IMG/VR virus record: IMGVR_UViG_3300046096_000928
Span: 28,554 to 92,553 of that record
Source of the DNA: a virus
Reading direction: 5' to 3' (one strand)
Length of the DNA stretch: 64,000 nucleotides
Below are positions 28,572 through 43,201 of this stretch, piece after piece. The position numbers and the translations under genes are program-made. The notes under the pieces were generated by a model. It was not told where the DNA came from. It saw only the letters and a program-made list of their open reading frames with translations, and did no database searches. The number at the start of each line of letters is the position of its first letter. Within the stretch, counting starts at the first letter, position 1.

Positions 28572-28945
28572 TGAAATTTACTTTTGATGAAAAGAAATTC
28601 TTAAAAGAGGCTGAGAGAATAGCTGTCAAAGGATTTGGTAAAGTAGCGGATGTAATGCAAGAACAAATAACTGAAGAAAAAAGAGAATACCCTAACCTTA
28701 CGGTGCGGAGGTATGGAGAGGGTAAAACTGGACGTATTGCTACAAGCCCTAGAGACGTGGTAGATAGTGCTGATTTAAGAGATAGTTTTATGAACGCTAG
28801 TAGAATAGAAGGGAATACTATTATTTTTAATGCTACATGGGATGCGGATCATGCTAGTTTAGTTTATTTAGGGACTTCTAAAATTCCTAGCTATACGTGG
28901 GTTGATAATGTAGTACAAACAATTAATTGGCAAACTATTATTTGA
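28571..28945 (+). CDS. HK97 gp10-like neck/tail completion protein
   Basis: A 124-residue protein with the gp10 layout. An N-terminal helix ('FLKEAERIAVKGFGKVADVMQEQI') comes first. 'SPRDVVDSADLRDSFMNAS' (P-R-D-x-V-D-x-x-x-L-R-D-S) follows, then 'ATWDADHASLVYLGT'. Such proteins sit between connector and tail tube. Convergent with ybeY, overlapping eight bases. Confidence 0.75.
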   Translation: MKFTFDEKKFLKEAERIAVKGFGKVADVMQEQITEEKREYPNLTVRRYGEGKTGRIATSPRDVVDSADLRDSFMNASRIEGNTIIFNATWDADHASLVYLGTSKIPSYTWVDNVVQTINWQTII

Positions 28946-29426
28946 TCGTAATTAGATTGATTTCTTCTAATAAATTTTCTTGCTGTTTTAACATTTCTAC
29001 TAGACTTTGATCGTCAGGGTGATTCCATCCTAAGAGATGTAAGAAGCCATGAGAAGCTAACCAAGTTAACTCAATCTTTAAAGCGTGTTGTTGAGTTATA
29101 GCTTGTCTCTTAGCTGTTTCTACTGAAATGATTATGTCTCCCAAATAAATAGGTTCATCTAAATCATCAATCAATATTTCATTTTCTAAGGAGGCAAAAC
29201 TTAAAACATCGGTTGTTTTATCTATGTTACGAAATTGATTATTTAATGCTTTTATTTCTTCATCATTAGTTAATCTTAGAGTTAGTTCATAATGATCATT
29301 TTGGGGAGTATCTGGACTTAATAAATTTAACCATTGTTGAAACCAATCTTGCCAAATGTCTGACAAAATTGGTTTATCTTGGCTATTGGAATATAAATCT
29401 TCAAAGAAAAGAGTGATAGTAGCCAT
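28938..29426 (-). CDS. ybeY: YbeY endoribonuclease
   Basis: A 162-residue protein with the full YbeY metal site H-G-x-L-H-x-x-x-x-x-H: H126, H130 and H136 in 'SHGFLHLLGWNHPDD'. The preceding 'RNIDKTTDVLSFASLENE' and 'YLGDIIISVETA' segments are also conserved in the family. In bacteria YbeY is a zinc-dependent RNase that acts in 16S rRNA 3'-end maturation and ribosome quality control. Length is normal, so it looks functional. It is normally a core host gene; here it is flanked by phage neck genes and small membrane proteins. Capture from a cyanobacterial host is likely. Confidence 0.92.
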   Translation of the reverse strand: MATITLFFEDLYSNSQDKPILSDIWQDWFQQWLNLLSPDTPQNDHYELTLRLTNDEEIKALNNQFRNIDKTTDVLSFASLENEILIDDLDEPIYLGDIIISVETAKRQAITQQHALKIELTWLASHGFLHLLGWNHPDDQSLVEMLKQQENLLEEINLITIK

Positions 29427-32742: not shown

Positions 32743-33094
32743 AATTCACTACGATTACTCTAATATTTTTCTCTTTAGCTATATTAATCATGTGTTGAGT
32801 ACCTTTGCTTACACCATTCCAAAAGGCAATTAGCCCGTCTGCTATTTCAGCCATTTGTTGATTTCTTTTATACCCAGCTGACTTACCATAACGATCCCAG
32901 TCTGCTGGATATTTTAATATTTCAAATCCATTCTCAATAGCGTATTTTTCTCCTAAACTATCCGCTCCTTTAGCACGACCACTAATCACTGTGATACCGT
33001 TATTTTTCTGGTTAATAAGTAGCTGATCGCACTTAGTTTTTAATAAATCATAATCAGAAAAATAACGAGTGCCACAAATAATTACTTTAAACAT
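32732..33094 (-). CDS. SLOG-family protein (DUF2493, YspA-like)
   Basis: A 120-residue Rossmann-type protein: 'VIICGTRYFSDYDLLK', 'GITVISGRAKGADSLGEKYA', 'GYKRNQQMAEIADGLIAFWN' and 'GTQHMINIAKEKNIRV'. These are the DUF2493/cpYpsA landmarks, with the G-x-x-x-G-A-D loop that binds nucleotide-like ligands. SLOG proteins are linked to nucleotide sensing and to conflict systems. It overlaps the thymidylate synthase gene by eight bases, suggesting a link with nucleotide supply. Confidence 0.85.
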   Translation of the reverse strand: MFKVIICGTRYFSDYDLLKTKCDQLLINQKNNGITVISGRAKGADSLGEKYAIENGFEILKYPADWDRYGKSAGYKRNQQMAEIADGLIAFWNGVSKGTQHMINIAKEKNIRVIVVNYEK

Positions 33095-34607
33095 CTTGTT
33101 TATAATTTTCTTTTTGTTGTGATACTTTTTCTAATTCTAAACCTAGATAACCGATATGTAAAGGATCAATACTTGGGTTATCTTTGGCGATCTCTCGTAT
33201 TAAAATTAATGGATTTTGTCCGTAATATTCTTTTATCAAATTATCCTGTTTGTCAAGATGTAATACTTTAATTTTTTCTTTATATTTTATTTCCTGATCA
33301 TATTCAATAATAAAATTACCAACAGGATCGGCATAAGTTATTTTTTTATTCCCATAATATTGAGTTTCAATTAAACTATCGGCATTTTCAAAACAATCAT
33401 CATAAATGTGTGCCGATTGACTAATTGTTATTAATGGTGCTAACTCAAGTTTACTATCTACATTGTCTCTAATGTGTACTTGTAATGCCCTTAATCCCAT
33501 CGCATTAGCTACCCAAGCACTAAACATATCATTACTACGAAAAGTAGCCGTCATGCTTAATTTATTATCGATTATACGCACCCATATATGATTAAGACAA
33601 GGTGACCCCCCATGTTCATGGTCACTATCACCAGCATTACGTCCATAACGTGCTAATTCAAAAGGCAATGATTCAGGCATACCACAATCATCAATTACTT
33701 TAATTGTATTACGTTCACAACCGCTACCAGAATCCCATAAATTCATAACGGCACTAGCCGAATCAGTTTCTTTTTTTAATTTGTCGATTACTTCTTTAAT
33801 TTGATCCTTGCCAAACCATGAACGTAATCTTTGACCATAAGTATATTTAACACCTTCTTTATACGGAGCATCTTCTAACATTTGTGGTAGATAATTAGTA
33901 ATATAGTTTTGATCGACAGGTAAATAATTGGGAGTTGGGAAATAAAAATCGCTAGGTTCATCTGTAATTATTGCTTTTAAATCAATTAATTCTTGCCATT
34001 TACCATCATATCCAGTTGGTCTTATTGTGCCATTAGTTCTTATTCTATGAATAATTTTTACCCATGTATCGGCAATAGTTTTACCTGTTACTGTATGGGA
34101 ATAAATATTACTTGGGTTTATTGCTGTTTTACTTTCTTTTATTTCAAATTCGTAATATTTACGTTTCTTACGTTTGGCAAACTGTTTCTCATATATCCCC
34201 ATAGGCTCTTGATACGTCACCGTAATCGAATTTCTTAATTCTTCTAAGGCTTTTTTAGTTATCTCTATATCTAAGTATCCTTTAATCTTTGAATTAATCT
34301 CCCATTTATTGTTTTCTTGCGTAATACCGTACTTGAAAAAATCAAATAGACATTTACAACTACCACTATTTTGATCTTCTCTAGTGGTGCTTAGAACCCT
34401 CAATTGTGTAATCTGAGGATTTAATAATAAATTCCTAATTAGAAAATTTATTCCTCTTGAAGGGCTGTAAAGATTCCCTATTGCCGCATATTCTTTAGAT
34501 GCTAACTTTTTGGCGATCGCCTCTTTAGGTGTCCAGCCAGTGACAATAACTAGATCATCGCCTGTCCCATAAATTAATTGATTCGGTTTATGAATTGCTT
34601 TATACAT
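33087..34607 (-). CDS. thymidylate synthase/dCMP hydroxymethylase-type protein with extra N-terminal domain
   Basis: A 506-residue protein. The C-terminal half carries the thymidylate synthase signature. C337 in 'GGSPCLNHIWVRII' is the nucleophile and is followed by 'SMTATFRSNDMFSAWVANAMGL' and 'LITISQSAHIYDDCFENAD'. The N-terminal ~110 residues ('GYGTGDDLVIVTGWTPKEA'-like start, 'GNLYSPSRGINFLIRNLL') form an additional domain of the DUF4346 kind found in cyanobacterial and archaeal homologues. It would methylate or hydroxymethylate pyrimidine deoxynucleotides, matching the ribonucleotide reductase at 37842. HIP1 site at 34513. Confidence 0.8.
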   Translation of the reverse strand: MYKAIHKPNQLIYGTGDDLVIVTGWTPKEAIAKKLASKEYAAIGNLYSPSRGINFLIRNLLLNPQITQLRVLSTTREDQNSGSCKCLFDFFKYGITQENNKWEINSKIKGYLDIEITKKALEELRNSITVTYQEPMGIYEKQFAKRKKRKYYEFEIKESKTAINPSNIYSHTVTGKTIADTWVKIIHRIRTNGTIRPTGYDGKWQELIDLKAIITDEPSDFYFPTPNYLPVDQNYITNYLPQMLEDAPYKEGVKYTYGQRLRSWFGKDQIKEVIDKLKKETDSASAVMNLWDSGSGCERNTIKVIDDCGMPESLPFELARYGRNAGDSDHEHGGSPCLNHIWVRIIDNKLSMTATFRSNDMFSAWVANAMGLRALQVHIRDNVDSKLELAPLITISQSAHIYDDCFENADSLIETQYYGNKKITYADPVGNFIIEYDQEIKYKEKIKVLHLDKQDNLIKEYYGQNPLILIREIAKDNPSIDPLHIGYLGLELEKVSQQKENYKQDV

Positions 34608-34660
34608 CTTTTTCTTTTAAAATTTTGTTAAAATATGAGAAATTACAAACAAGCTACAAA

Positions 34661-34855
34661 ATGAACAATAAAAAAAATTTACCACATTTCGACTTTGAAT
34701 TAAAATTAGAGCAAGAGTTTAGAATAAGAGAAGCTAAACTCTTGGTTTCTCTTATAAGTAGGGAAGAGTTAGAACAACTTTTTATTAGTATTTTTACCCA
34801 TAAATTGAGGCAGGATAATCAATTAACATTGATGTATAAAAAATCTTTTCTTTGA
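34661..34855 (+). CDS. nblA: NblA-like phycobilisome degradation protein
   Basis: A 64-residue protein, the usual NblA size. I start at ATG 34661; the frame to 34595 overlaps the thymidylate synthase start. 'DFELKLEQEFRIREAKLLVSLISREELEQLFISI' (quoted here only as ELKLEQEFRIRE and LISREELEQLF) matches the NblA core E-L-S-L-E-Q-E-F-x-x-R...M-S-R-E-x-x-x-x-x-L, and the lysine-bearing end resembles the family's C-terminus. NblA docks phycobilisomes to the Clp protease. Cyanophages are known to carry it, probably to free amino acids or limit excitation during infection. Confidence 0.85.
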   Translation: MNNKKNLPHFDFELKLEQEFRIREAKLLVSLISREELEQLFISIFTHKLRQDNQLTLMYKKSFL

Positions 34856-34856
34856 T

Positions 34857-35087
34857 TTATGGTAATCCTTTTACATTAAAGCAATGAGTTATAAAACGCT
34901 GATACTTTAAATAAAATTCTCTGAGTTTCCCATCAAGAAATCTGCCCCTATTCATTTCTGGTTTATTTAAAATGATATGAGAAATAGAAAGTAAGCTATT
35001 TAATTCAGTAATTAATTCATGCTTATTTGCCCTTTCTATTTCCAATATTTCCATCATAATAGGAGTCACTTTTTTATCCATCGCCAA
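34857..35087 (-). CDS. hypothetical protein (76 aa)
   Basis: Helical protein ('PIMMEILEIERANKHELITEL', 'RFLDGKLREFYLKYQRF'). ATG 35079-35081 is an equally good start. Convergent with nblA with one base between them. No family recognised. Confidence 0.6.
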   Translation of the reverse strand: MAMDKKVTPIMMEILEIERANKHELITELNSLLSISHIILNKPEMNRGRFLDGKLREFYLKYQRFITHCFNVKGLP

Positions 35088-35341: not shown

Positions 35342-35656
35342 CTATTTTGTTTGTTTTTCTTTTAATTCTTTAAGTCGATTAGTCTTATCTAATGCCTCGA
35401 AATAATCATCATAATAATTTACATTAGTAGTGCCTTCTCTACATTTTAGATGTCTTAAATCACGCATAAAACCATGATTAAAGAATAAACTAATTTCTAT
35501 TTTTGCCTGTTGTATTTCACAGCCTAAAAATCGTTCATATTGTTTACTCACAATAAAATAACCAGCTTCTCTATCTTCTAAATGATAAAAAACACCTGTC
35601 TGATCATTTTCTTTAATTCTTTGCCATTTTAATAAAATTTGTTTTAATTCTTCCAT
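35342..35656 (-). CDS. hypothetical protein (104 aa)
   Basis: Alpha/beta protein ('YHLEDREAGYFIVSKQYERF', 'HGFMRDLRHLKCREGTTN') with a basic tail. It starts one base after the stop of the RHH gene upstream, so the two are coupled. No family recognised. Confidence 0.6.
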   Translation of the reverse strand: MEELKQILLKWQRIKENDQTGVFYHLEDREAGYFIVSKQYERFLGCEIQQAKIEISLFFNHGFMRDLRHLKCREGTTNVNYYDDYFEALDKTNRLKELKEKQTK

Positions 35657-41660: not shown

Positions 41661-41806
41661 TTGCGTTTAACTTTTTAAAGTATAATCGTTAATTTTACTG
41701 AAAAATAGTTTATCACAAAGCCGTATCAAAAATAAAAATCATAGTGAAACTTTTTCATGTAATAACGACTAATGATATAGAGATCATTAATAGATGCTAC
41801 AAAATT

Positions 41807-43201
41807 ATGAAAGTATGTTACGCCCGTGTTAGCAGTAGAGAACAAGCCTTAAATAGTAATGCTTTGATACAACAGCTTGATAGATTAAATAGTCAAGTTA
41901 TTGACAAGGTTTATTCCGATGTCGGCTCTGGTAGAACATCAAAAAGATTAGCTTTTAAGGAATTAATTAAAGATATTAAAAAAGGCTTGATCTCTGAATT
42001 GGTTGTTACTCGTATGGATAGACTTATGCGTAGTTTAATGGCTCAAATTGAGTTTGTTCTACTTTTAGAAAAAGAAAATATAATTTTAACTGTCTTGGAT
42101 CAAGCTGTTGATTTTAAAACCGCTTCTGGCAAGTTACAACTAAATATTTTAGGTGCTTTCTCTCAAAACTTTTCTGATGATCTATCCGAAAAAGTAAAAC
42201 ATGGTTATGAATATTACCGCAAGACTAAAAAGACAACCCGTAGTATCTTAGGTTACAAAATTGTTAATAGTCAAATATTGATTGACGATGATCCTTTTCT
42301 TTGTTTATGGCAAAATAAATCTGAATATTCTAAATATAAAATAGCACGTAAAGTTATCGATTTTTATCTGGAAGAAAAAAGTATTTCTGGTTGTCTCAAA
42401 AGATTAAATATTTATTTTGGGTTACAGAAAAGTAATTTTAATCCCCGTGCTTATAAATCACTTCACTTTTCTGAGGCTGGAATAAAATGTTTCCTTACAC
42501 ATCCTATTCTGAGAGGCTATCTAGTTTATTTTCAATATGATAAAAATAATCCTACTCAACTTTACCCTAATAATCATCAACCTATTTTATCTGAGTTAGA
42601 ATATGCCGAAATTTTAAGGATACTTGATCATAATAAAAAAGTAGGTGGTTATGGCAGTAAAAGTAAAAATCCTTTTACTGGTTTTATTTCTTGTCAAACT
42701 TGCTTATCTTCCATGCGGTCACTCAAAATAAAACAAAACCCTTTCAAGTATTATTCTTATTTTCGATGCCAGAATGCCCGACAACAAGCCTGTTCTAATT
42801 ATAAATCTGTTCGTGTTGATAAAATAAAAGCTATTTTATTTCAAACTTTACAATCAAAATATCTTGAGTTAATCAATCTTACTACTGCCATAATCCCCAC
42901 TGATTCTATTGAGATTCAATCTTTACTCAGTCAAATCAACTCTTTATCTTCATTACCTAATAATCCCGCTATTGATCAGGCGATCGCCAATATTCAATTG
43001 CAAATACAAAATTTACAATCTGAACATTCTAAAAATAAACTAATGCATTCGGACAATGAAGATTATTTAAAAAGTATTTTTTCTTCTACTAGCTTTTGGG
43101 AAACTTTATTACCTCATCAACTTAAAGAAATTGTACAGAAATTGGTTAACAAAATTTTAATCTTTGACGGCGAAGTTATTGCGGTAAAATTGAATCTTTG
43201 A
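41807..43201 (+). CDS. large serine recombinase (XisF-like integrase/excisionase)
   Basis: I start at ATG 41807 ('MKVCYARVSSREQ'), giving 464 residues, because the resolvase fold begins there. The catalytic serine is in 'YARVSS', followed by 'SDVGSGRTSKRLAFKELIKD', 'VVTRMDRLMRS' and 'FDKTASGKLQLNILGAFSQN'-type sequence. A recombinase domain (~155-270) and a zinc ribbon ('CQTCLSSMRS...CQNARQQAC') follow, with a C-terminal coiled region. Closest in style to cyanobacterial XisF, which excises the fdxN element. It suggests integration or programmed excision. HIP1 at 42980. Confidence 0.88.
   Translation: MKVCYARVSSREQALNSNALIQQLDRLNSQVIDKVYSDVGSGRTSKRLAFKELIKDIKKGLISELVVTRMDRLMRSLMAQIEFVLLLEKENIILTVLDQAVDFKTASGKLQLNILGAFSQNFSDDLSEKVKHGYEYYRKTKKTTRSILGYKIVNSQILIDDDPFLCLWQNKSEYSKYKIARKVIDFYLEEKSISGCLKRLNIYFGLQKSNFNPRAYKSLHFSEAGIKCFLTHPILRGYLVYFQYDKNNPTQLYPNNHQPILSELEYAEILRILDHNKKVGGYGSKSKNPFTGFISCQTCLSSMRSLKIKQNPFKYYSYFRCQNARQQACSNYKSVRVDKIKAILFQTLQSKYLELINLTTAIIPTDSIEIQSLLSQINSLSSLPNNPAIDQAIANIQLQIQNLQSEHSKNKLMHSDNEDYLKSIFSSTSFWETLLPHQLKEIVQKLVNKILIFDGEVIAVKLNL

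Follow-up and report, generated by a model that had tools for sequence, protein, structure and literature searches.

A divergent nblA-like gene beside thyA in a phage record and its unstable history among close relatives

The locus, its virus and its host

The window, a stretch of 64,000 nucleotides (G000:C1:28554-92553) from a linear IMG/VR virus record of 92,553 bp, contains a small open frame between a thymidylate synthase gene (thyA) and short phage genes. The initial annotation had proposed that this frame is an nblA gene. NblA is a host protein that tags the light-harvesting antenna for destruction. The features of the locus and its wider surroundings are as follows.

28938-29426, minus strand: YbeY endoribonuclease, complete gene (PF02130, 121.6 bits)
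33087..34607, minus strand: thyA of cyanobacterial type, with a PterinBD-DUF4346 domain (PF00303, 42.4 bits)
34608..34660: intergenic stretch of 53 bp between the divergent thyA and nblA; promoter scan blank
34661..34855, plus strand: nblA-like gene, 64 codons and a stop (translation, profile and PDB matches)
34857..35087, minus strand: 76-aa orf, tail to tail with nblA and 1 bp from its end
35342..35656, minus strand: 104-aa orf at the far edge of the site, conserved in L017, L018 and L019
37842..40028, minus strand: ribonucleotide reductase large chain, on the strand of thyA
41744-43201, plus strand: large serine recombinase, with a homologue in a likely prophage of genome G205

Translation confirms the coordinates, size and neighbours first given for the gene: 64 residues and a stop, with the segments ELKLEQEF and SREELEQLF both present. 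The start codon is in register with that of a sister gene in the related virus G040. On codon usage the gene's own frame scores highest of its six; of 238 true coding stretches 97.5% score higher still, and so do 3.7% of 1,190 wrong-frame stretches. The coding signal is weak and the codon usage atypical for the record. Scanning the 53-bp intergenic stretch revealed no promoter-like site and nothing above chance, and scans for terminators and RNA folds stayed at chance level. The YbeY gene, normally cellular, here lies among phage genes.

That the gene is phage-borne is upheld by the capsid, portal and terminase genes on the same record, which also encodes a DnaB helicase, a sliding clamp, a ribonucleotide reductase and the serine recombinase. 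This recombinase, together with its homologue in the likely G205 prophage, suggests that the phage group is temperate. Judged from sequence, the host is clearly a cyanobacterium. The ThyA of the window is 50-52% identical to ThyA of many cyanobacteria, and the terminase is nearest to those of Nodularia phages (39%). The gene had also been taken to name the host type; it does point to a phycobilisome-bearing host and leaves the genus unnamed. GCGATCGC (HIP1-like) sites occur 21 times in the 92.5-kb record at 30.6% GC, far above the roughly 0.14 that we estimate from base composition alone, and this abundance is a host-type signature within the phage.

Homology to NblA

Against the Pfam profile PF04485, whose curated cut-off is 25 bits, the window protein scores 19.7 bits (E=0.0012; residues 13-60 on profile positions 1-48 of 50) and so misses the threshold; the lack of such a hit was one of the two findings that the initial annotation had named as speaking against an NblA. 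The sister protein in G040 passes the same cut-off with 28.1 bits. The NCBIfam NblA profile NF045916 matches the window protein with 39 bits (E=6.5e-10), far below its equivalog cut-off of 100 bits. This cut-off is narrow, because even a plain Microcystis-like phage NblA (L035) reaches only 29.7 bits. In a phmmer search of the PDB, NblA of S. elongatus (3cs5) was found with E=1e-5, and the NblA entries 2q8v and 2qdo with 0.017 and 0.4. A profile built without the window protein and its sister gives the window protein 43.5 bits, a value that is not independent because 13 of its 17 rows had been collected with a model containing the window protein; the best shuffled sequence under this profile reaches 13.9 bits (10,000 made, 9,923 scored), and no other of the record's 1,056 open frames gives a clear match.

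The reverse search gives a similar picture. A two-row model made of the window protein and its G040 sister matches 44 of 386 cyanobacterial genomes at E<=0.001, and all 30 matches fetched as loci read as NblA. When eight host-genome sequences, six of them from those loci, were compared with Pfam, all but one cleared the threshold for NblA; the exception, L196, reached 21.4 bits. One of the model's weakest matches, within a 498-aa frame, resembles something other than NblA. Among phage records, tblastn with the window protein returned only Streptococcus satellite-phage matches (E=0.2) and tblastn of the G040 copy against phages returned none, and scans of viral contigs with the window protein and with a three-row alignment (A4) confirmed no relatives. 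The proposed relation to NblA is borne out by the NF045916 and 3cs5 matches and by the reverse search of cyanobacterial genomes. By sequence comparison we regard homology to NblA as settled, with the protein lying below the curated cut-offs for family membership.

The conserved residues are retained unevenly. The segment LKLEQEF fits the N-terminal NblA motif L-x-[LV]-E-Q-[QE]-F, and a passage of PMC4103541 states that this side of NblA binds ClpC. In the alignment, the second helix of the window protein is strongly diverged. Two C-terminal residues of Anabaena NblA, Leu51 and Lys53, which we take to be its phycobiliprotein contacts, correspond to Met58 and Lys60 of the window protein in an alignment read by eye; a text search of the literature for these two contacts did not find them. 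Of the contact residues expected of an NblA, the N-terminal motif is kept, and the C-terminal side appears to be kept only in part. The predicted fold, made from an input alignment that included other NblAs, is a helix-loop-helix with helices at residues 16-30 and 34-63 (mean pLDDT 83.8, pTM 0.47). A structure search with this fold returned no NblA and a single unrelated row (4ehp_B, E=5.6). The size of 64 aa, the single domain and the helix-loop-helix are consistent with an NblA of about 60 residues.

The nearest known proteins are NblAs of the S. elongatus type (NF045916, 3cs5, L194 and L195), which provide the best profile and PDB matches, group with the window protein in the tree and share with it an LE-x-x-F signature in the second helix. 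Identity to them is at most 38% (L195), and the window copy differs in being phage-borne, in a record of 30.6% GC.

Ancestry, relatives and gene neighbourhoods

We placed the protein in a tree of 48 rows, in which it pairs with the G040 copy (99/80) and this pair joins L194, L195, L213 and L196 (99/97). Two further trees were built from reduced sets of rows, and in the absence of G040 and L196 the window protein still falls with L194, L195 and L213 (97/93). It lies apart from the copies of Ma-LMM01, PaV-LD, G037 and the Microcystis-like phages, so the check on grouping with cyanophage copies that the initial annotation had proposed shows no grouping with known freshwater cyanophage NblA in this placing, which is rough because only 65 alignment columns were kept and end branches are long, with unsettled bootstrap values.

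The host-genome sequence L196 is unlike an ordinary host gene. This NblA-like gene is in a low-GC stretch of G205 (G205:C1 near 2,669,000), near the integrase end of the region. Close by are a portal that resembles the window's at 25% identity (3e-19) and a serine recombinase that does so at 27% (3e-43), with cellular genes beyond the far side of the recombinase. Because of these phage-like genes, the low GC and the cellular genes beyond, the region looks like a prophage. Its NblA resembles that of the window in lying near the window and G040 copies in the full tree, in scoring under the Pfam cut-off and in the related portal and recombinase, but the two proteins are only 33% identical and the stretch read contains no thyA. 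A line of phage and prophage NblAs that curated cut-offs miss likely exists, as far as these sequences indicate, though the joining of L196 to it is itself weak (97/5, that is, 5% SH-aLRT for the three, on long branches).

Among close relatives of the virus, the site beside thyA is variable. In L017 and L018, whose thyA is 85% alike to that of the window, a spacer of 221 bp separates thyA from the 104-aa gene and holds an nblA relic that shares its strand with the window gene. This relic matches the model of the window and G040 copies with E of about 1e-8 in a record search and 2e-7 to 3e-7 in a six-frame search, and it has stops throughout; plain tblastn of the window protein does not detect it. 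As the relic region is identical in both, the two contigs represent one decayed copy. In L019 (thyA 79%), nblA was not found at the site, which has no room for the gene. G040 (thyA 79%, capsid 95%) has no nblA beside thyA. Its homologue, intact, 65 aa long and with 34% identity to the window protein, instead lies next to the capsid genes, tail to tail with an orf of 120 aa; at the corresponding capsid-side place the window virus carries no nblA but an orf of 116 aa that resembles this neighbour. Two contigs with identical capsid, L120 and L121, gave no match to the two-copy model, but they are fragments absent from our thyA scan and are thus uninformative on the thyA site. With a decayed copy in L017/L018 and none found in L019, nblA is dispensable. 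The history of the gene in this phage group is one of instability: across close relatives it has been gained or lost, has decayed, or has moved. We also considered nblA and its convergent neighbour as a travelling pair and rejected this, the 76-aa neighbour and the 120-aa neighbour in G040 being dissimilar.

The pairing of nblA with thyA recurs in other phages. A scan with the thyA protein yielded 64 viral loci, many of them near-duplicates. In 45, thyA is preceded on its own strand by an nblA at a distance of 240-858 bp; an opposite-strand match was present in two, upstream DNA was missing in five, and in 12 there was none in the available piece. At the level of whole records, PF04485 was above its cut-off in 36 of 49, these records deriving from 50 of 65 loci. 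The thyA-linked copies (L046, L035 and 43 further loci) are on uncultured phage contigs, just upstream of a cyanobacterial-type thyA. They are nearly the same as the Microcystis host NblA L182 and score 84-91 bits to Pfam. In these contigs nblA adjoins the same type of thyA as in the window but shares its strand, whereas the window nblA is divergent from it. The window protein is only 23-26% identical to six aligned thyA-linked copies, which argues that the Microcystis-type gene was a separate acquisition. None of 55 thyA loci of cellular genomes, viewed up to 5 kb on each side (several shorter), contains nblA; we therefore reject inheritance of the linkage from hosts, and it looks like a phage trait. 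A tblastn search of the phage collection with the Microcystis-like nblA and the window thyA returned no such pair.

In Ma-LMM01 nblA overlaps nrdA, an order shared by its relative MaMV-DC; the overlap in PaV-LD is with thymidine kinase; and in the uncultured contigs nblA stands ahead of thyA and, in the one locus read, also of nrd genes. These copies resemble the window gene in being phage-borne beside a dNTP-synthesis gene, and differ from it in that those of Ma-LMM01/MaMV-DC and PaV-LD score over the Pfam cut-off, lie on their neighbour's strand and do not group with it. Leaving out G037 (a near twin) and weak Nodularia phage matches, nblA is beside dNTP-synthesis genes in four of eight lineages, the window and G040 lineages being close kin. 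That it always lies there is rejected, since S-SCSM1, G040 and, as read by eye, G032 and the G205 prophage do not fit. Of the weak matches, one is a hypothetical orf of Nodularia phage vB_NpeS-2AV2 (L117:1797-2027, plus strand; 23.6 bits, sub-threshold), and two other Nodularia phages have similar ones.

A putative adaptor for phycobilisome breakdown

Taken together, we consider that the gene probably encodes a divergent NblA-type proteolysis adaptor that, if expressed, would hand phycobilisome proteins over to the ClpC of the infected host. By homology, the protein would fold as a helix-loop-helix and dimerise; its N-terminal LKLEQEF segment would bind ClpC and its second helix the phycobiliproteins, so that the antenna could be fed to the Clp protease, and its removal might lower light stress and free amino acids to the benefit of the phage. 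Phycobilisome breakdown during infection, as first proposed, may fairly be inferred from the function of the NblA family. We favour the adaptor role because of the NF045916 and 3cs5 matches, the recovery of host NblAs by the two-row model, the predicted fold, the G040 sister's passing of the Pfam cut-off and a position next to genes of dNTP synthesis, which the nblA genes of Ma-LMM01 and PaV-LD share. A further reason is that other phage NblAs are reported, in passages of PMC9602691 and PMC4103541, to cause phycobilin loss on expression. Weighing against this role are the sub-cut-off Pfam score, the atypical codon usage, the diverged second helix, the decay or absence in relatives, the lack of a promoter above chance and a structure search without NblA.

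Some of these points would also suit a relic on its way out, whose frame is still open but whose function is lost, as in the stop-filled sister contigs. The stops throughout the L017/L018 copy, the missing gene in L019 and the weak coding signal agree with this; however, all 64 codons are open, the N-terminal motif and helix pattern are kept, and G040 keeps an intact copy at another site, making such a relic unlikely. Alternatively, the homologue may have changed its aim, docking on ClpC to deliver another protein, or blocking host NblA as a partner and so protecting the antenna. We view this as rather improbable: the retained N-terminal half, the diverged second helix and the long end branches would fit, as would heterodimers of NblA paralogues, which are reported for Synechocystis, but the nearest host proteins are ordinary S. 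elongatus-type NblAs with similar C-terminal halves. Extended to the whole window/G040/G205-prophage lineage, the idea would be that these proteins left the host role, keeping the ClpC-docking half for another target or as a false partner capping host NblA, and were quickly gained, moved and lost; this, too, seems doubtful. That a short helical frame merely happens to look like NblA, as the protein's shortness, its Pfam score and the structure search without NblA might suggest, is very improbable given the two independent matches (6.5e-10 and 1e-5), the homologue in a sister virus and the relic at the same site.

Phage nblA is already in print (PMC9602691, PMC4103541), and the window copy belongs to a divergent line; our search of open-licence papers found none describing this phage group or thyA-linked nblA. 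The known range of phage nblA is thereby widened to a line that standard cut-offs miss, and because it falls below them, surveys of cyanophage nblA undercount. Close relatives with nblA intact, at another site, decayed or not found also offer a natural experiment. The position of nblA beside dNTP-synthesis genes in four of eight lineages is a lead that antenna removal may be part of early infection, when nucleotides are made; a passage of PMC4103541 reports early expression of Ma-LMM01 nblA, which fits its place beside such genes.
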